Below, piece after piece: positions 7,282 to 53,628 of a stretch of DNA of 64,000 bases (positions are counted from its first letter, which is position 1; each line of letters opens with the position of its first letter). The notes beneath the pieces are model-generated. The model saw only the letters and a list, made by a program, of their open reading frames with translations. It made no database searches and was not told the DNA's origin. A program made the translations under genes and the position numbers. The stretch is from NCBI GenBank assembly GCA_947561715.1, contig OX387197.1, forward strand, positions 1,865,001 through 1,929,000, written 5' to 3'. The DNA comes from Ascidia mentula. Its lineage: Eukaryota; Chordata; Ascidiacea; Phlebobranchia; Ascidiidae.

Positions 7282-7510
7282 TATGATGGCCCACCGTTAT
7301 CACACTCGTTGCTATAAGTTATATTCAAAGTACATTTCAAAGTCAAACTTGAAATCAGTTTTGAAGCCAAGTTGATTACAAAAACACATTTTCTTTATTT
7401 TAATTCACGATCACTTTAAACGTTACTGAAAACTATTCTAAAATCGAAAATTAAATTCGAATTTAAAGATTTATTCGTTGGAACCAGCATGATAGCGATG
7501 GGCCACCATG
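7282..7510. mobile_element. Short IS3EU-like MITE, diverged
   Basis: The left end reads TATGATGGCCCACCGTTATC and the right end, reversed, CATGGTGGCCCATCGCTATC. Both match the terminus of the 4.0-kb transposon at 46598 (TATGGTGGCCCATCGCTATC). The flanking hexamers CTTATC and CTTGTT are 4/6 identical, as expected for an aged 6-bp target duplication. The interior is about 180 bases, AT-rich and non-coding, resembling the transposon's subterminal sequence. It is an old internally deleted relative. Confidence 0.7.
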
Positions 7511-16390: not shown

Positions 16391-17307
16391 ATGGTGAAGG
16401 TACTGCTTGGTTGCACAGGGAGTGTAGCGACGATAAAAGTTCCTCAAATTATTGAAAAGCTCAGAGAGGTGTTGCCTGGTGTTGTGATCAGGCTTGTGGT
16501 GACGGAGCGGGCAAAGCACTTTCTTGATTTGAGATCAATCGGTGTCGAAGTAAGTCGTAACAATGTAATTCAAGCTTAAAAGACAAATTATTTGAAGGTC
16601 CAACTAACGAACAAATTAAGACTGCTTTTCTTTAACAAAATACACAACAGGTGAATTTCAAGTAACTTTAAGCATCACCAGCTTATATGACTAAATGGCA
16701 AAGCTCTCTTTGCACACAAAACAAGAATAAGGTTATTACATTTACATAGCCTACCAGATTGGAAAAAATGTCGTGCAAAAATTGACTGATAATCTGTGCA
16801 ATAAAATTTATCCAATGCATTAACATACGACAAAGATTGCAATTGTCCATACAAATACCAAACTTTCCAATCTGGTTAATGTACAGTGTTTAATCAAATG
16901 TATTACCATGTGTTTAGGTCTTCAGTGATTCTGATGAGTGGGAAAATTGGTCAAAGATAGGAGACCCTATTTTGCACATCGACCTACGAAATTGGGCCGA
17001 TTTGTTAGTAATTGCTCCACTTGATGCGAACACGTTGGGAAAATTGGCTCACGGCATTTGTGACAACCTCCTTACTTGCATCGCTCGAGCGTGGAATGTT
17101 AAAGAAAAACCAGTGATAATTTGTCCTGCCATGAACACATTGATGTTTGAACATCCGTCAACAGAAAGAAACATAGAAATCCTAAAAGATTGGAATTATA
17201 TCGAGGTTCCACCTATAGTTAAGAAACTTGCATGTGGTGATGAAGGTATTGGTGCATTAGCCACTGTTGAAAGTATTGTATCTTGTATTACTGCCAACGT
17301 ACACTGA
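16391..17307 (+). CDS. PPCDC: Phosphopantothenoylcysteine decarboxylase
   Basis: Two exons, 16391-16549 and 16918-17307 (stop TGA), give 182 residues; the human enzyme is about 204. PPCDC is the flavin enzyme of coenzyme A synthesis that decarboxylates 4'-phosphopantothenoylcysteine to 4'-phosphopantetheine. Family marks are LLGCTGSVA near the N-terminus (flavin site), the block [24 protein letters not shown], the substrate-binding CPAMN motif, and [10 protein letters not shown] with the catalytic Cys region. The start is the first Met of exon 1, directly before the conserved strand. DPH1 begins only 5 bases after the stop, suggesting a shared transcript. Confidence 0.95.
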
Positions 17308-17312
17308 GGACA

Positions 17313-18602
17313 ATGAATGCCACTGTAAGTGAAAAGACCCAGGCCCCTGTCACAGTTGTGAAAGCAAACCCAATAAGAAAGCGATTCGGCCCAAAGGCCA
17401 AAGTCAGTTTAACAAACAAAATTCCTGATGACATTTTAAATGATGTCAAATTGCAACAAGCTGTCTCATTGCTTCCGCCCAACTACGAGTTTGAAATCTA
17501 TAAAACTGTTTGGAGAGTCAGACAGGCAACCGCAAAGTGTGTTGCCCTGCAGTTTCCTGAGGGCCTTCTCATGTTTTCATGCATAATATCTGACATCATT
17601 GAAACTTTTACTGAAGCTGAAACTGTGGTAATGGGTGACGTGACGTATGGAGCATGCTGTATTGATGATTACTCAGCAAGAGCTCTTGGCTGTGACTTTA
17701 TGGTACATTATGGCCACAGTTGTCTTGTCCCAATTAATAACATGCCCGACATGAAAATGCTTTATGTGTTTGTTCACATAAAGATTGACAGCACACATTT
17801 TCTCGACACTTTAAAGTATAACTTTGAGATTGGATCGAAGCTGGTGATCATAAGCACCGTCCAGTTTATCACCACCCTTCAAGCTGCCAAGAAAGAGTTA
17901 TTAAACCATGGCTTCGATGTAGTTGTTCCACAAATTAAACCCCTCTCCCCTGGTGAAGTGTTAGGCTGCACTTCACCTTCGTTAAATGGAATAAATGCTA
18001 ATGCCGTCATTTATCTTGGAGACGGCCGTTTCCATTTGGAGTCAATGATGATTTCCAATCCAGACCTGCCGGCATTTGCCTACGACCCCTACAGCAAGGA
18101 ATTCACCCGCGAGCATTACGACCATGAAACTATGCTTCACACAAGAAAAAAAGAAATTGCAAAAGCTGTCAAATGCAAGAGATGGGGTTTGATCATGGGG
18201 ACCCTTGGTCGACAAGGTTCCACTAAAGTTCTCGACCATTTAAGGACTTTGATGCTAGCTGCTGGTAAAGAGGTTACAACAGTTTTGTTGTCTGAGATAT
18301 TTCCAAGTAAACTGGATTTATTTGAGGACATTGAGGTATGGGTCCAAACTTCTTGTCCTCGTTTGTCGATTGATTGGGGAACTGCTTTCAATAAACCTCT
18401 CCTTAATCCATATGAGGCGTCTGTTGCCTTAAACCAACTTGAATACAAAGAAAAATATCCAATGGATTTTTATGCCAATGAGAGCTATGGACCGTGGACT
18501 CCTAACAATGAAAAACACCGACCAGCAGTGAAGAAAACAAACAGAACTAAATCATCACAACCTTCAATCATCTCAAAGGCAAATGGGATTTTATCTATTT
18601 GA
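17313..18602 (+). CDS. DPH1: Diphthamide biosynthesis protein 1, 2-(3-amino-3-carboxypropyl)histidine synthase subunit
   Basis: A single uninterrupted exon encodes 429 residues (human about 443). DPH1 with DPH2 forms the radical [4Fe-4S] enzyme that moves the 3-amino-3-carboxypropyl group of SAM to the histidine of elongation factor 2, the first step of diphthamide synthesis. The three cluster cysteines are visible at about C115 (YGACCIDD), C219 (LGCTSPS) and C348 (QTSCPRLS), spaced as in yeast Dph1. The frame is open upstream to an ATG at 17283 inside PPCDC, but the ATG at 17313 is preferred because conserved sequence follows it and PPCDC ends at 17307. The lack of introns amid intron-rich neighbours is notable. 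It is probably the downstream cistron of a two-gene operon, released by spliced-leader trans-splicing. Confidence 0.95.
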
Positions 18603-45079: not shown

Positions 45080-46442
45080 ATGTATCGCATCCTAATTCTA
45101 GCTGTAATCTTGGTTGGGGTTTCTGCCGAAATTTATCATTACCCAGGTGAGTTTATAATGTCCAATTTGCACATACAAACACGAAGCACTTCTGTCTGTC
45201 TGTTATCACTGGAAGGAAAATGATCGCTAGGTCATCGCCTGTAGCTGTAGTTAAAATCCTCATATTTAACACCAACCATTAAGATAGTTTCGAGACATTA
45301 ATCCTGTTAAAAACATGCAGGTACAGGACAATAACCACAATTCCTTTCAGCTTGTGTATTTACTGGGTACCTGACACAACTTTAAGTGGGGTTTAAGCAA
45401 CATGTCATTTATGATAACAACAGCATTTCTTACTTAAATTGTGTCGTCACAGTGACGTACAAGAGCCTGGGTTGCTGGAATGACGACAAATCGCGTGCAA
45501 TTACGTCATTGGAAGGACATCCCCTGTTGCGAGAGCCGTACAGAGTGCGTGCATTGGCAATCCAGAAATGTGGATCCCTCGCCAGTCAACTGGGGTATGA
45601 CGTGTTCGCAATACAGGTTGGTATACTGTTGTTCATGTAGTGGTTTCTTTTCTTTTGTTTCAACACGCGTTATTTTTAAGGGATACTGACGGTGCCTGAT
45701 TGTAGGCGAAATATATAATATATAAAACATAACGACAAATGACTTTATTCAAAGAGTTGTTTCATGATGTGCTGTTTTTGCATCGTAGAATGGTGGCATG
45801 TGCATGGCATCCAAGTCCGCTCGAAAAACTTACCGGTCTTTCGGGAAAAGTAAAATGTGTCGGCCGGACGGGAAGGGAGGAAAGTCCGTCAATCAAGTTT
45901 ACGAACTCGATATTGTTTCAAAAGGTGTGACGTAATCCGACTTTGGTGAAGATATATAAGTTTGTTTGTTAAAAACACACAACATTAGCTTCATTGCGAC
46001 ATATCAAAACATTTATTTTCGTGGAGATGTCAGCTATTGTAACGGTACGATGGCGTTTACAATCATCGTTATAATAAAGCATACAACAAAATACACGCAG
46101 AAGAAAAAAAGAAATTAAATAATTTTTTTTTCAGTTTCAACCACAAGCCTCGGTTGCTGGCGGGTAAGCACCCCACGGGCAATCCCCACACTCGAGAAGC
46201 TGGTACCAATATTGAATGGAGATTACGTCACAAGAAAGCAGGCGTTCGAGAAATGCCTTACAGCAGCCGCAAGCAGAGGTCACCACGTGATGGCGCTCGA
46301 GGATGGGGGCATGTGTTTGTCGTCATCGGACGGCTTGGAGAAATATATGACGTATGGTGAGAGCGACGGTTGCCAAGACGACGGAAAGGGAGGAGAGGAT
46401 TCGATGCAGGTTTATCGACTCCGGTATCATTGGATCAAGTGA
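45080..46442 (+). CDS. Secreted two-domain Cys-rich protein, paralog A
   Basis: Four exons, 45080-45146, 45453-45616, 45789-45924 and 46135-46442 (TGA), encode 224 residues. MYRILILAVILVGVSA is a signal peptide. Two copies of a domain of about 95 residues follow, each with LGCW, RAI..LE, a KC helix, GGMC, then a Cys and DGKGG..VNQVY-like ending. Similar GCW...DGKGG domains occur in secreted invertebrate proteins, but I cannot name the family. Domain 1 is split over two exons and domain 2 lies in one. The paralog at 52329-53628 has middle exons of identical size (164 and 136 bases). A 4.0-kb transposon sits 155 bases after the stop. Confidence 0.85.
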
Positions 46443-46597
46443 GTTTTCACCAAATAACTCAAAAAGCTTATGCGGCAAAAAATTACCGGTGGTTGAAAGT
46501 ATTTAAGTTCACTTAATAAACAGTTTTCTGATTTTTTTATGATTTCGGATGCAACAATGTAAGTTTGGGTGTTTAGTTGAGTATATTCATGCACCAG

Positions 46598-47223
46598 TAT
46601 GGTGGCCCATCGCTATCACACACATTTTAACAAAAAAATATCAAATGCGTATTTTGTTTTGCATTATGACTTTATTTTTAATTACGTTTTTGAAAGCGAT
46701 AATAAATTGAAATGGAAAACGCATTTTTAAAATTAACTTCGTTTTAAAACAGATTTCAAACTTGACTTTGAGATGTATTTTGAATAAAACTTTCAAATAA
46801 ATTTTTAATATCACTTTCAATTTTATTTTGGAAATCAATTTTACATTTCATTTTCAATTTTATTCTGAAAATAGTTTTAAAATCTATTTCGAAAACCATT
46901 TTCATTTTCATTTTGAATTTCATTTTCATTTGAAATATGCGATTTTTTAAATCCCCACGTAGCCCAGCGCTATCAATCCCATACACATACAATAGCCATT
47001 GGCCCAGCGCTATCAAATTTAATAGAAATCATACAACGTTCTAAACAAACTTCGTAATTAGTGCTGCAATAAAGTAAAGTGTTGTTTGGTTGCAGACGAT
47101 GTATTTATTTGTTCCACGTCGTTCTGTTGTACTTGTTTGTGCCATGCGAGGCTGAATTAAAACTAGACAACAATCTTCTTTATAATTCCAAAAAGTTGCG
47201 ACAGTTTTTGGGAACGAGATTGC
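46598..47223. repeat. Left terminal inverted repeat of the 4.0-kb transposon
   Basis: It pairs with 49975-50599. The outer 400 bases are essentially identical between the two arms; a few mismatches appear toward the inner edge (for example around 47030 and 47200). Dense ATTTT/AAAAT words make up the subterminal part. The mirrored 86- and 65-codon open frames in both arms come from this repetition and are not considered genes. Confidence 0.9.
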
Positions 47224-47276
47224 GTAGTATATTCATACTACAGTTGCATAAGACGTAAACGTAAACCCTGTTCGAG

Positions 47277-48431
47277 ATGAAACGAGTCAAGGAAACGTGG
47301 GAAGATTTCGAAAAAAGGGTCGGAATGAAACGCAGAAAACAAACTAAGGCTGTTCCAGAGGATATAATGGTCCAACGGTTATCTTCGACACCATCAGGAA
47401 GAATAAAAAAATTTGAACCTTTGGACACAAGGGATTTTGTTCCCTTCTCTTACGAAGAAGTAAATTTAGAAAACATAAAATTAGCTTGTGAGTCTTATTA
47501 CCAAGCACCGCCTGGCTCTTGTGATGTACTTGCATCGGACAGAGGACCTTCTTGTTCCAGATATGAACAAATAAAGGGCAAAAAGTTTTACTACGTTAGA
47601 TTTATGGAGCCAGTAGGGCGCGACAGGAAAGACCTTGTTGAGGAGAAACCACCTCAGCCTGTACAAAAGTCTATCTCCATAAGCACCCTTTTAAAGGCTG
47701 GAAAGTTAATAAAAAATGAAGTGAGGTCTGTTTCTGTGGACTTAGAGCAGTTTGTTCTAGATGATTGTGCATGGAAAAGTAAAGCCAACTTACTTTTGCA
47801 AGTATCATGCACCAGCTTTGCTAGTGGTGCCTTCCGCAAGGCATTTATGGCAAATCAGGTTCCCCCAAAAGATAAACTTGTAGTAAAACTGTACAATGAA
47901 AGTGCTGCTTCCACCATCCAGGAAGATTTACACATTTCTATGGAAGACCATTGCAGAAAGCAAGTTCAAATGCACACAGTGGCAAAGAGTTTGACAGAAA
48001 AGTTCTCTGAAAAAGTGCCCATTGAATTTGGAGAACATTTGAAGTATGATGATGTATTTTTTTGCAAATACAATGAAAGCCCTGCTACTGTGGAAAACTA
48101 TTATTCTGGTGAATTCGTGAAATATGTAAACAATGATGGTTCATGCTGTAAATTCACCAACAACGTTCTACAGCAAAAATGTGAATGTCTGGTGCACTTT
48201 AGTTACATATTTTCTGAAAAGAAAATGATGTTGCTCGACATTCAAGGAGTGAACCACACATTATTTGATCCCGAAATTGCTACAACACATCTCTTGGATG
48301 AAAATGCAGAAGTGTTTTTTTGTGCAGGCAATTTGTCAAGTGTTGCTATTGATACATTTATTGAGAGTCACATTTGCAACAAATTTTGTGTTATGATGTG
48401 TCTTCCTCAACTAAATCTAAATAATACCTAA
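47277..48431 (+). CDS. Alpha-kinase (MHCK/EF2K family), transposon passenger
   Basis: An intact single-exon frame of 384 residues. Alpha-kinases are atypical Ser/Thr kinases (EF2 kinase, myosin heavy-chain kinase, TRPM6/7). The domain fills about residues 175-380: the nucleotide loop FASGAFRKAF, the ATP lysine in VVKLY (K204), the block FVKYVNNDG, HFSYIFS, the catalytic DIQGV (D321), LFDPEI, a GN loop, and the zinc-binding end SHICNKFC (His and two Cys). All signature residues are present. The first 170 residues have no recognised domain. It lies wholly between the inverted repeats, convergent with the transposase and about 90 bases from it. Its role in the element is unknown. Confidence 0.92.
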   Translation: MKRVKETWEDFEKRVGMKRRKQTKAVPEDIMVQRLSSTPSGRIKKFEPLDTRDFVPFSYEEVNLENIKLACESYYQAPPGSCDVLASDRGPSCSRYEQIKGKKFYYVRFMEPVGRDRKDLVEEKPPQPVQKSISISTLLKAGKLIKNEVRSVSVDLEQFVLDDCAWKSKANLLLQVSCTSFASGAFRKAFMANQVPPKDKLVVKLYNESAASTIQEDLHISMEDHCRKQVQMHTVAKSLTEKFSEKVPIEFGEHLKYDDVFFCKYNESPATVENYYSGEFVKYVNNDGSCCKFTNNVLQQKCECLVHFSYIFSEKKMMLLDIQGVNHTLFDPEIATTHLLDENAEVFFCAGNLSSVAIDTFIESHICNKFCVMMCLPQLNLNNT

Positions 48432-48522
48432 AGCATGTTTTTGTTACTTTTATGTGACTCTGTAATTTGTTTCAATTCTGCTATTACAAAAGCAAACATG
48501 ATACATTTGTTTTTATTGTTTC

Positions 48523-49715
48523 CAGTTATGCAGAAAAATTTTGCCGTAAAAAACAATAGATGCTGTCAGCATCTCCACAAGAAATTAATTCAGGATTGGG
48601 AACAAGCTGTAAACATTTATCTTTTATACTGGTGCTTAACCATTCCTCCTGGGCATGTAAAACACCAGATATTTCAGCAACTTCTTTAAGGTCACAGTCA
48701 TTAACTGTAAGACCTTTACAAGTTGTGCCATAAAATTCAGGACATTCAAAAATATGTACAGGTACACCAGTAGGTAAAAGAATATTGTTTTGATTGCGTA
48801 TGCGATGACTGTTCCAATTTGCCACAAAAATATCACATTCACGTTGTACAATAGGTTTGTAAATATAAAACAGTAGCTGACGGTCAGTTAGACAATGTGG
48901 ATCATACTTTCCATTTGTTATTAATGATCTAAGTTGTGCTTTGAAAAAAAGCTCTAATCTTTCATGCAGCTCCCTCCACCAGCGCTCAATTTTATTTGTG
49001 TTAGAAGGACCATATATAACACTCTCTGTCGGATCTTCTAAATCTCCATGTTTATTCCTGAGATATGTATTATTGCCATTTTTCCTGTTTCAGTTCCTCT
49101 ATCCAGTCTTAAAAACTTTGCCATTGTTTGAGTTTCATATATGTGCTCCAAATATTTCTTTCCGATAATCTGAGGGTTGGAGTTTGAGTGAGTAACAAAG
49201 AGAAATAACACTTTACGTGAAAATGTATCTATTGCACCATATATGCCCAGCGGAAAAGTGTAGTTTTGATATCCACACAACTTGTCGTGCCCATCCAATG
49301 ATACAAGTTGAAGAGGGCCACTACAAGCAAACAGTTGTTTGGGTTTTTTAATTTTCTGTCTTACATTTCGACTAGCAACACCCTCAGGGTCTTTTTCTTG
49401 CAACACTTTCTGAACTAAATGCCTTGGCACAAAAATTTTATGTTTACACCGTAGCTTTTGATTCATTGCTCGATAACCTAACAGTTTTCCAGGTCCCTGT
49501 AACTCTTCATCAACAGCAGCACAAACTTCATTCAAAGAAGTGTCGTATCTTATGTATGTAATATCAAAATAGCGAAGTCTTCGGTCTAGAGTTGCAACAC
49601 TCCAAGAATATTCAGAAAACCTTTTCTTCACCAACTGCAAAATTTCTTTTCGCTTCATGTTTTTTGCAACACAATTTTGTAACATAGCTTTTAAATCACT
49701 ACTCTGTTGCCACAT
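48523..49715 (-). CDS. IS3EU-like DDE transposase (integrase core), one frameshift
   Basis: Starting MWQQSSDLKA at 49715, the N-terminal part looks like an IS3-type helix-turn-helix (TLDRRLRYF, GYRAMNQKL). The integrase core follows: SLDGHDKL with the first Asp at 49293-49295, RLDRGTETG with the second at 49101-49103, and the Glu in NTNKIERWW at 48985-48987, then the conserved ANWNSHRIR. The C-terminal part ends at FSA near 48523. The frame shifts once at about 49060-49075, between the second Asp and the Glu. No GT-AG intron explains it, so this copy probably lacks active transposase despite its young inverted repeats. Confidence 0.8.
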
Positions 49716-49974
49716 TATAACTTTTGCACCTGGATGTGACTAGACCATCAATTTTACAAAGCTGCAAAAATATGACATCATAAGAAAATTTGCAATAAAT
49801 GCCAAAATAAGACCAAGAAACTTAAAATCAAGTTCAAGATCCGAGCGCAGCGGTGCATTAAACTTGCATTAGTTTAATTGTTTTTATTCTTCCACACGGT
49901 GTTAAAGATAAACGTTGGACCATTATATCCTCCAGTCCCCCAAAAACCTATTGTTGGCATCGCAGGCTGTCAAT

Positions 49975-50599
49975 GCAATCTCGTTCCCAAAAATTGGCGC
50001 AACTTTTTGGAATTATAAAGAAGATTGTTGTCTAGTTTTAATTCAGCCTCGCATGGCACAAACAAGTACAACAGAACGACGTGGAACAAATAAATACATC
50101 GTCTGCAACCAAACAACACTTTACTTTATTGCAGCACTAATTACGAAGTTTGTTTGGAACTTTTATGATTTCTATTAAATTTGATAGCGCTGGGCCAATG
50201 GCTATTGTATGTGTATGGGATTGATAGCGCTGGGCTACGTGGGGATTTAAAAAATCGCATATTTCAAATGAAAATGAAATTCAAAATGAAAATGAAAATG
50301 GTTTTCGAAATAGATTTTAAAACTATTTTCAGAATAAAATTGAAAATGAAATGTAAAATTGATTTCCAAAATAAAATTGAAAGTGATATTAAAAATTTAT
50401 TTGAAAGTTTTATTCAAAATACATCTCAAAGTCAAGTTTGAAATCTGTTTTAAAACGAAGTTAATTTTAAAAATGCGTTTTCCATTTCAATTTATTATCG
50501 CTTTCAAAAACGTAATTAAAAATAAAGTCATAATGCAAAACAAAATACGCATTTGATATTTTTTTGTTAAAATGTGTGTGATAGCGATGGGCCACCATA
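49975..50599. repeat. Right terminal inverted repeat of the 4.0-kb transposon
   Basis: Reverse complement of 46598-47223 with only scattered differences near the inner edge; followed directly by the CACCAG target duplication. Confidence 0.9.
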
Positions 50600-50605
50600 C
50601 ACCAG

Positions 50606-52328: not shown

Positions 52329-53628
52329 ATGAGGCTGTCACTATTGGCGTTGGGTTTTTGTGTCATATTTGTGTGTGTGGCTTCGGACAAAACCTATTAC
52401 ACAAGTAAGTTTTAAACTGTAACAAAAGCTGGCTTTGTGATTTCGTTAAAATTGGAATCGTTTCTAATTCAAACATGTTTCTGTGCAGTATTGTACGACA
52501 ACCTTGGATGCTGGAACGACACGCATGAGCGAGCAATAGCCACCGCTGAGGGACATCCCCTTTTACGCGACCCTTGTCATTTACGTTTGGACGCCGTTGA
52601 GAAGTGTGCGAGGGTTGCTCACCTTCTTGGAAACGATGTATTTGCTGTTCAGGCGAGTAACTAAATTATGATTGGAAATCGTAATATGTGTGGCAAGAAA
52701 TCGGACAACATTTGTGTTGATGCAATATTTCGCTGTTTTTATATTAAATAAATATAAATTTCGTATTTTTATTATTTTTCGAGAAACGAACACACATTTT
52801 TTCAAGAATTTCCTCAGTGTTTGGTCAAAGTTCCGTGAACCTTGCACTGCCCAGCTTAAATTTATGTTTAATTATTAGAATGGTGGATGGTGCTACACCT
52901 CCAAGAGTGCCCTGACAACATATAGAAGGTACGGACCGTCAGATGCATGCCAAAACGATGGCAAAGGTGGACCTCTCGCTAACCAAGTCTATCAGATTTA
53001 CCGGGTTGTGAAAGGTATCAATTGTTTGATGTTTGTTTCAATGTTGTGGTTTTACCCTTTTTTGGCTGCGCCGGGATTCGAACCCAGGATATCCTGGCCA
53101 CGAATCCCGATCAGGTTTGCTTCTTGGAATATGAGTCGGGCCCTCTACCAATGCTGCCAATCACCAAGTTTTACCTGTTGTGGGATAAACAACTTTACTT
53201 TTGGGTCTTGTGCACTGGATTATGTCCCTAATTATGTCATCAAGATTTATTTGGAATTCTGAATCGCTTGCTGACACCATTTTTACGATTTTGGTCCAAA
53301 CTTATTTTTTATTTTAGTTGAAACTTGTGACATGGGATGTTGGAGGGACACCCCGGATCGGGCAATACCCACACTCGAGAACTTGGATAAAGTTTTGATG
53401 GACAGCTATAGAAATCGTACTAATGCAATAGCAAAGTGTATCGAAGCTGGTGCAAGGCGTGGATACCGGATGGTTGCAATTCAAGATGGGGGGTGGTGCG
53501 CTGGTGCCAAGGATGCACACAAAACTTACCAGAAATATGGCAAATGTTCTGAGGCATGCGATGTAGATGGTAAAGGTGGTTTGTGGGCCAATCAGGTTTA
53601 CCAACTGGAATATCAGTGGATCAAGTAA
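52329..53628 (+). CDS. Secreted two-domain Cys-rich protein, paralog B
   Basis: Four exons, 52329-52404, 52489-52652, 52879-53014 and 53318-53628 (TAA), give 228 residues. MRLSLLALGFCVIFVCVAS is a signal peptide. Domain 1 runs from LGCWND to DGKGGPLANQVYQI; domain 2 from MGCWRD to DGKGGLWANQVYQL, ending QWIK like paralog A (HWIK). Exons 2 and 3 have exactly the sizes of those in paralog A. Exon 2 ends at a GC donor (CAG|GCGAGT) where paralog A has GT. Intron 3 carries a tRNA-derived SINE. Function is unknown; the two-domain, disulfide-rich, secreted plan suggests binding outside the cell. Confidence 0.85.
53070..53165 (-). mobile_element. tRNA-derived SINE or tRNA-like repeat in intron
   Basis: On the minus strand an A-box-like TGGCAGCATTGGTAGAGG and a perfect B box GGTTCGAATCC followed by CCGGCGCAGCC are spaced about 60 bases apart. 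The middle does not fold as a tRNA anticodon arm. It sits in intron 3 of secreted gene B and differs from the SINE at 61025. Confidence 0.6.

Follow-up and report, generated by a model that had tools for sequence, protein, structure and literature searches.

Why a DNA transposon should carry a gene for a signalling kinase is the question raised by a locus at positions 46598-50599 of a 64,000-nt stretch of the Ascidia mentula genome (contig OX387197.1, C1:1865001-1929000; hereafter the window), where a sequence-only reading had described a eukaryotic cut-and-paste element carrying an intact alpha-kinase. We searched the whole genome (195.8 Mb in 79 contigs, given below as C plus a number; all search counts are lower bounds), and the description is supported by further copies, by their target-site duplications (TSDs) and by the open frame of the kinase. 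The whole is probably best explained by a young cut-and-paste element of the IS3EU superfamily, which in this genome normally comprises two genes, one for a DDE transposase and, convergent with it, one for an alpha-kinase. The identity and architecture of the element, taken jointly, are close to certain, the assignment to IS3EU being made from the termini, the duplication length and the DDE core and not from a comparison with Repbase sequences.

The element in the window is a complete transposon of 4002 bp. It is bounded by terminal inverted repeats (TIRs) of about 625 bp, at 46598-47223 on the plus strand (tip TATGGTGGCCC) and at 49975-50599 on the minus strand (tip CCACCATA), which show 4 mismatches and 2 gap columns in a whole-arm alignment of 624 positions. 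The outer arms (46597-47036 and 50161-50600, 440 nt) are 100% identical and overshoot the element by one base per side through a chance match, and the inner arms (47035-47223 and 49975-50163, 189 nt) are 98% identical. A perfect 6-bp TSD, CACCAG, lies on either side (46592-46597 and 50600-50605); the 0.6-kb repeats and perfect CACCAG duplication claimed earlier are therefore confirmed. The termini TATGG (at 46598) and CCATA (at 50599) agree with the TA..TA ends of IS3EU and the TAYGG..CCRTA ends of its rust type, and the length of the TSD agrees with IS3EU as well. In the left TIR, a 15-bp motif is present three times (at 46605, 46962 and 47002), and these copies could be candidate transposase-binding sites.

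The alpha-kinase gene (47277-48431, plus strand) is a single open frame of 384 amino acids that covers the complete Pfam profile Alpha_kinase (PF02816; positions 1-185 of 185, E 7.9e-32; score 111.3 bits, curated cut-off 21.3). When aligned with TRPM7 and MHCK A, the protein has K204, E273, D321 and D331 in place, together with H307, H365, C367 and C371 at the zinc-ligand positions; among these are the residues that we take to be the ATP-binding lysine, the catalytic aspartates and the zinc ligands. The claim of a full kinase with catalytic and zinc-binding residues is thus upheld, and K204, E273, H307, D321 and D331 are invariant across all four element families aligned. The best phmmer match is TRPM7, with 60 bits only. 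Ahead of the kinase domain lies a conserved N-terminal extension of about 110 amino acids, common to the four aligned families and containing the invariant cysteines C71, C82 and C93; window positions 47352-47606 encode its residues 26-110 (CDVLA..GPSC). Residues 1-125 are conserved at least as well as the remainder (68.8% vs 61.8% between families A and B, 63.6% vs 44.3% between A and C), and no Pfam family was found in this N-terminal part at E 0.01. The extension is possibly a targeting domain.

The second gene (48526-49715, minus strand) encodes a DDE integrase-type transposase and is convergent with the kinase, as had been claimed; what had been missed is that the window transposase is broken, with an open reading frame of 225 amino acids followed by a different frame, owing to a private 4-bp deletion between 49070 and 49071 that is found in none of the four other aligned copies. 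The first frame piece matches rva_4 below the cut-off (E 2.4e-4), and an uninterrupted homologue of 397 amino acids (C71:17367817-17369007) matches rva_4 (PF24764) with E 2.3e-19. In the numbering of this homologue the putative DDE triad, assigned from conservation, is D141, D205 and E245, of which D205 and E245 are kept in all five aligned transposases and D141 in four; D141 and D205 precede the break and E245 lies beyond it. This frameshift probably leaves the window copy non-autonomous. Programmed frameshifting occurs in the transposases of some bacterial IS3 elements; it was ruled out here, since the deletion is absent from the four other copies and two copies read through in a single frame. 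No other long frame lies between the two genes, and the element is therefore not a TET+ IS3EU element.

Matches to the terminal 203 bases were found at 16 genome sites, and 12 of these mark the ends of the six elements that we call family A. These six TIR-bounded copies lie on four contigs with differing flanks, and because the same TIR pair occurs five more times outside the window, chance is excluded. The TSDs of five copies are perfect and mutually different: CACCAG in the window, GACCTC at C69:6916687, CATTAT at C71:17365886, ATGGTG at C1:14931521 and CATAAC at C52:17295973. The sixth copy (C69:21370172-21393153) is interrupted by other DNA, and no TSD was found for it. Pairwise identity among five aligned copies is 98.7-99.4%. 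A full-length kinase frame is open in four of the six copies and a full-length transposase frame in two (C69:6916687 and C71:17365886), both genes being open in these two. The copy at C52:17295973-17298648 is 2.7 kb long and lacks the kinase, with both ends and the TSD present. It was ruled out as an ancestral kinase-less element: it matches the full element apart from a deletion of about 1328 bp that removes nearly the whole kinase and the last ~25 transposase codons, and judging from this alignment it is an internal-deletion derivative.

The pair of genes is not confined to family A. Both genes are also present in families B, C and D, with identities to family A of 62% (kinase) and 67% (transposase) for the longest B copy, 48% and 57% for the longest C copy, and, piecewise, about 26-48% and 35-58% for family D. 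Both ends could be located for 14 elements of the kinase clade (six of family A, one of B, one of C and six D-like, including two copies on C70 and a short element on C73). A perfect 6-bp TSD flanks 11 of the 14, in four families; none was found at C69:21370172, C70:12746931 and C69:8692338. The short element (C73:9646055-9647587, 1533 bp, TSD CCTATG) is complete and still contains part of a transposase as well as a kinase remnant (E 2.5e-6), and because of this remnant it is taken as an internally deleted derivative of a kinase-bearing element.

It is also evident from the genome-wide counts that the two genes are linked. Merged matches from the Pfam and element-kinase searches give 28 kinase loci, one of which is the host eEF2K gene. 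A transposase match lies within 5 kb at 20 of the 28, and one more was added by tblastn at C67:15680673; among the 27 element-like loci, a related transposase is nearby at 21, and the remaining six are short fragments or contain stops or frame changes. The transposase matches in turn merge to 52 loci, 28 close (at least 42% identity) and 24 distant (at most 38%). A kinase match within 5 kb accompanies 20 of the 28 close loci and 1 of the 24 distant ones, the latter (C1:14817405) adjoining a family D element.

The kinase and transposase trees both recover the groups A, B, D and (C, E, G), in an analysis based on query-anchored pieces with broken copies included and rows shorter than 100 residues dropped; family F appears only in the kinase tree and family H only in the transposase tree. 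Because the NG86 and YN00 estimates between families were saturated or undefined for nearly all pairs, we compared divergence at second codon positions with that at four-fold sites and used neutral simulations. Between families A and B the kinases share 63.8% protein identity, with a nonsynonymous divergence (dN) of 0.28 and an NG86 synonymous divergence (dS) that is undefined by saturation; second positions differ at 72 of 384 and four-fold sites at 59 of 83 (P = 8e-20). The A-C and B-C comparisons show the same direction (P = 1.5e-9 and P = 1.1e-8, respectively). The transposase resembles the kinase, with differences at 64 of 389 second positions (0.165) vs 51 of 88 four-fold sites between A and B (P = 1.7e-14). 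In neutral simulations with 411 nucleotide differences the frame stayed open in 0 of 500 runs, and the highest amino acid identity was 0.417, compared with 0.638 observed. These codon patterns indicate purifying selection on the kinase between families, so at this level the suggested check for such selection came out positive. Within family A the changes are indistinguishable from neutral, and the claim of selection therefore concerns the long-term history and not the youngest branches.

The sequence-only reading had named element copies lacking the kinase, together with the kinase as a single-copy host gene, as evidence against it. This combination was not found: the C52 copy is a deletion derivative, the C73 element holds a kinase remnant, and the host alpha-kinase that we found is a different gene. 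The latter (C69:5602178-5602884) was matched by the Pfam search and not by the element kinase; its coding pieces lie in differing frames and have their best PDB matches in eEF2K (E 1e-13 and 1.3e-22), so that it is a separate, multi-exon eEF2K gene. An origin of the element kinase from this gene was ruled out: because the locus is split over frames and matches eEF2K best, the element did not recently copy it. Of genes that bear on the nature of the host, the genome gave 36 matches to Wnt, a family known only from animals, and 48 to connexins, known only from chordates; by this evidence the host is an animal and probably a chordate, and its small genome would suit a tunicate.

The distant transposases (28-33% identity by tblastn in the five examined) sit in similar elements of a sister clade, for which the ends (TACGG..CCGTA) and a 6-bp TSD (ATGGTC) were established in one element, C52:9616564-9621556. 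Its transposase has 433 amino acids and 28.7% identity, and a second gene is convergent with it. A 141-amino-acid piece of such a second gene, taken from C2:19299169, matches 19 genome loci, 16 of which have a distant transposase no more than 3 kb away and in every case convergent; several of these matches are weak (~30% identity, E near 8e-4). The second gene is, by sequence similarity, HECT-type and resembles a ubiquitin ligase, with PDB matches to E6AP (E 6e-5 over 34 residues) and TOM1 (E 7e-4). A whole-genome Pfam search for HECT gave 70 matches, most of them outside the sister loci, and three of the 16 sister loci exceed the curated cut-off (C72:10747063, C2:19136256 and C2:19299037, with 34-37 bits vs 23.9). 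In Pfam scans of seven separate pieces of the gene none passed the cut-off: the first three pieces gave one match below it (E 0.034), and of the four others two matched only unrelated or doubtful families, likewise below it (RNF220 the best, E 0.0056), while the other two had no match. The HECT-type gene is thus found at 16 of the 24 distant transposase loci, and 23 of the 24 have no kinase match within 5 kb. No paper joining IS3EU with HECT was found in a literature search that had subscription papers and Repbase Reports outside its range.

Going by the anatomy of the element, intact copies would provide transposase in trans; this enzyme would bind to the long inverted repeats, cut the element out and place it elsewhere with a 6-bp duplication. 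The kinase frame of the window copy is open although its own transposase is frameshifted, and selection at the level of the element would have kept the kinase while the families diverged to about 50% protein identity; we ascribe selection to the element because the kinase is inherited together with the transposase and evolves nearly as slowly. It is very probable that the kinase is selected as part of the element, and the comparisons among copies and families indicate that it is a stable component and not a chance capture. Several observations weigh against this reading. Because dS is saturated, dN/dS is bounded only, and the four kinases of family A have 14 variable codons, with 9 nonsynonymous and 5 synonymous changes that are compatible with neutrality (P = 0.24). 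Eight of the 28 close transposase loci lack a kinase match within 5 kb; they comprise half of a split element with the kinase in the other half, the C52 deletion, the C73 element and five fragments on C71, and in the one C71 fragment looked into (C71:13807889) no kinase piece was found. The two genes have opposite orientation in the elements except in the family C copy, where the orientation is the same; this copy also lacks the last zinc cysteine of the kinase and has a gap in the transposase, and the longest family B copy lacks the first D of its transposase triad. Finally, the predicted structure of the kinase is a poor model (mean predicted local distance difference test score, pLDDT, 49), and a fold search with it, in which 36 of 36 matches at E ≤ 0.001 are alpha-kinases, therefore gives weak support.

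Eukaryotic DNA transposons capture genes, and the kinase could accordingly be a passive hitch-hiker, a host kinase captured once, without a role and never removed, which the few neutral-looking changes within family A would allow. This is very improbable, given an open frame and 64% amino acid identity at saturated synonymous sites, the 500 simulations that never kept the frame open, the lack of closeness to the host eEF2K, and the fungal IS3EU elements reported with these two genes in a matching relative orientation. An artefact of assembly or annotation, or a host kinase that merely lies between repeats, has a negligible probability in view of six family A copies on four contigs with different flanks, five of them with different 6-bp TSDs. 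If instead the kinase benefited the host as domesticated or advantageous cargo, its intact frame beside a broken transposase in the window and the 6 of 27 element-like kinase loci without a transposase found nearby would be accounted for. However, the copies are young and nearly identical, so the pairing of a live kinase with a dead transposase may simply be recent, and the six loci are short fragments or disrupted by stops or frame changes; selection at the level of the host is improbable, if less so than hitch-hiking.

The preferred explanation, a kinase kept by the element for its own sake, leaves more room for doubt as to what the enzyme does. It would most likely aid the element, through phosphorylation either of the transposase complex or of a host factor that keeps transposons in check, for which the chromatin, small-RNA or repair machinery would offer candidate targets. 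Antagonism of host restraint is the job that we favour, with considerable reserve. Somewhat less likely, the kinase regulates its own transposase by phosphorylation, in cell-cycle timing or in limiting copy number, and has nothing to do with host defences: the two genes are co-inherited and similarly constrained, and both occur in all four main families, but in the sister clade, which has a related transposase, 23 of 24 loci show no kinase match within 5 kb and 16 of 24 have a HECT-type gene, so this type of transposase does not in general need the kinase, and the 2.7-kb copy without a kinase has both ends and a TSD, although its deletion may postdate insertion. We place host restraint slightly ahead since in the sister clade another modifying enzyme occupies the slot and fungal elements add TET. 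A broader reading would be that IS3EU elements offer, convergent with the transposase, an accessory slot for interchangeable protein- or DNA-modifying enzymes (alpha-kinase in one clade, HECT-type ligase in its sister clade, fungal TET), that these enzymes disarm host restraint for the transposon, and that lineage-specific expansions of "host" alpha-kinases, for example in rusts (PMC4469406), are largely transposon genes; as a joint proposition this is tentative. The slot is the part of the argument that could be new.

Beside these elements, several observations concern their structure and spread. The family C element contains a perfect 78-bp inverted repeat (C2:18884363-18884440 and 18884856-18884933) at the point where the last zinc cysteine of its kinase is lost, and its transposase is flipped relative to the other families. 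The two kinase elements at C70:12746931-12752022 and C70:12757475-12762356 are mutually inverted with facing flanks that are reverse complements, probably an inverted segmental duplication carrying the transposon. Exact TATGGTGGCCYAT ends occur 74 times in the genome, vs 5 for a reversed-pattern control. Of the 46 sites with TATGGTGGCCTAT, 35 have no kinase match and no close transposase match within 6 kb, so many non-autonomous derivatives probably exist. An apparent non-autonomous relative of 229 bp is present in the window at 7282-7510, with IS3EU-like but degenerate ends (one mismatch per end within the terminal 12 bases), 73% identity to the TIR over 7316-7509, and a possible flanking duplication in which 4 of 6 bases agree by eye. 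In other contig collections no relative was confirmed (76 pattern matches in genome contigs; 2, 38 and 49 in viral contigs). As to the surroundings, the element stands between two similar plus-strand coding pieces (GCWR...RAIPTLE), one at 46119-46439, without a Pfam match, and one at 53275-53625, with a WSC domain match slightly under the cut-off (E 7.9e-6), and it may lie within an intron of a WSC-repeat gene. Elsewhere in the window (16918-18599) a Flavoprotein (PF02441) piece is directly followed by a frame of 443 amino acids matching Diphthamide_syn (PF01866).

These results would mean that an animal DNA transposon retains a signalling kinase as its own machinery, under selection reaching beyond the synonymous-site record, and they raise the testable question of what a transposon gains from phosphorylating something. 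With the HECT-type sister clade, two solutions can be compared within one genome. They also call for caution, as alpha-kinase expansions in genome annotations may be genes of mobile elements. The alpha-kinase family is described as highly expanded in rusts, with 79 and 39 in two columns of a table row of PMC4469406, and these rust kinases may be transposon genes as well.

The sequence-only reading knew of no described case, a statement that does not stand: the pairing of kinase and transposase is already in print, in passing, for fungi. According to the passages of Kojima (2025; PMC12730594) drawn on here, all TET+ IS3EU families, whose hosts are rust fungi and a truffle, carry a TET gene with the transposase gene on one side and the alpha-kinase gene, oppositely oriented, on the other, and the author proposes that TET counters silencing. 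Beyond this paper no report of a transposon-encoded alpha-kinase was found, with subscription papers and Repbase Reports outside the search, and earlier animal descriptions may exist; a further candidate, PMC6505742, was dismissed, its portion consulted concerning an eIF2-alpha kinase. As far as these searches show, the set of animal families, the evidence for selection and the sister clade with a HECT-type gene in the same slot are apparently new, and the design, in light of those passages, looks known but little studied and not unique to one element.

The comparison with known systems is as follows. The element shares with rust IS3EU the 6-bp TSD and TAYGG..CCRTA ends, and with the TET+ families the opposite orientation of the two genes, as given in the same passages of PMC12730594; compared by description only, the TET+ families differ in having fungal hosts and a TET/JBP dioxygenase gene between the pair, which the element in its animal host lacks. 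IS3EU/GingerRoot, in the main text of Kojima (2023; PMC10045372), has TA..TA termini, usually a 6-bp TSD and a DDE integrase-like transposase without an HHCC domain, and the element is like it in termini, TSD and DDE integrase-like core; that main text never mentions a kinase, whereas the element carries one. GingerRoot is not separable from IS3EU there, and a GingerRoot identity for the element is possible. The sister elements of the same genome have IS3EU-like ends, a 6-bp TSD and a convergent second gene as here, that gene being HECT-type and not a kinase. With TRPM7, MHCK A and eEF2K, for which structures have been solved, the element kinase shares the catalytic domain and the zinc site; it is unlike them in its conserved N-terminal extension outside the kinase domain and in a best match of 60 bits.

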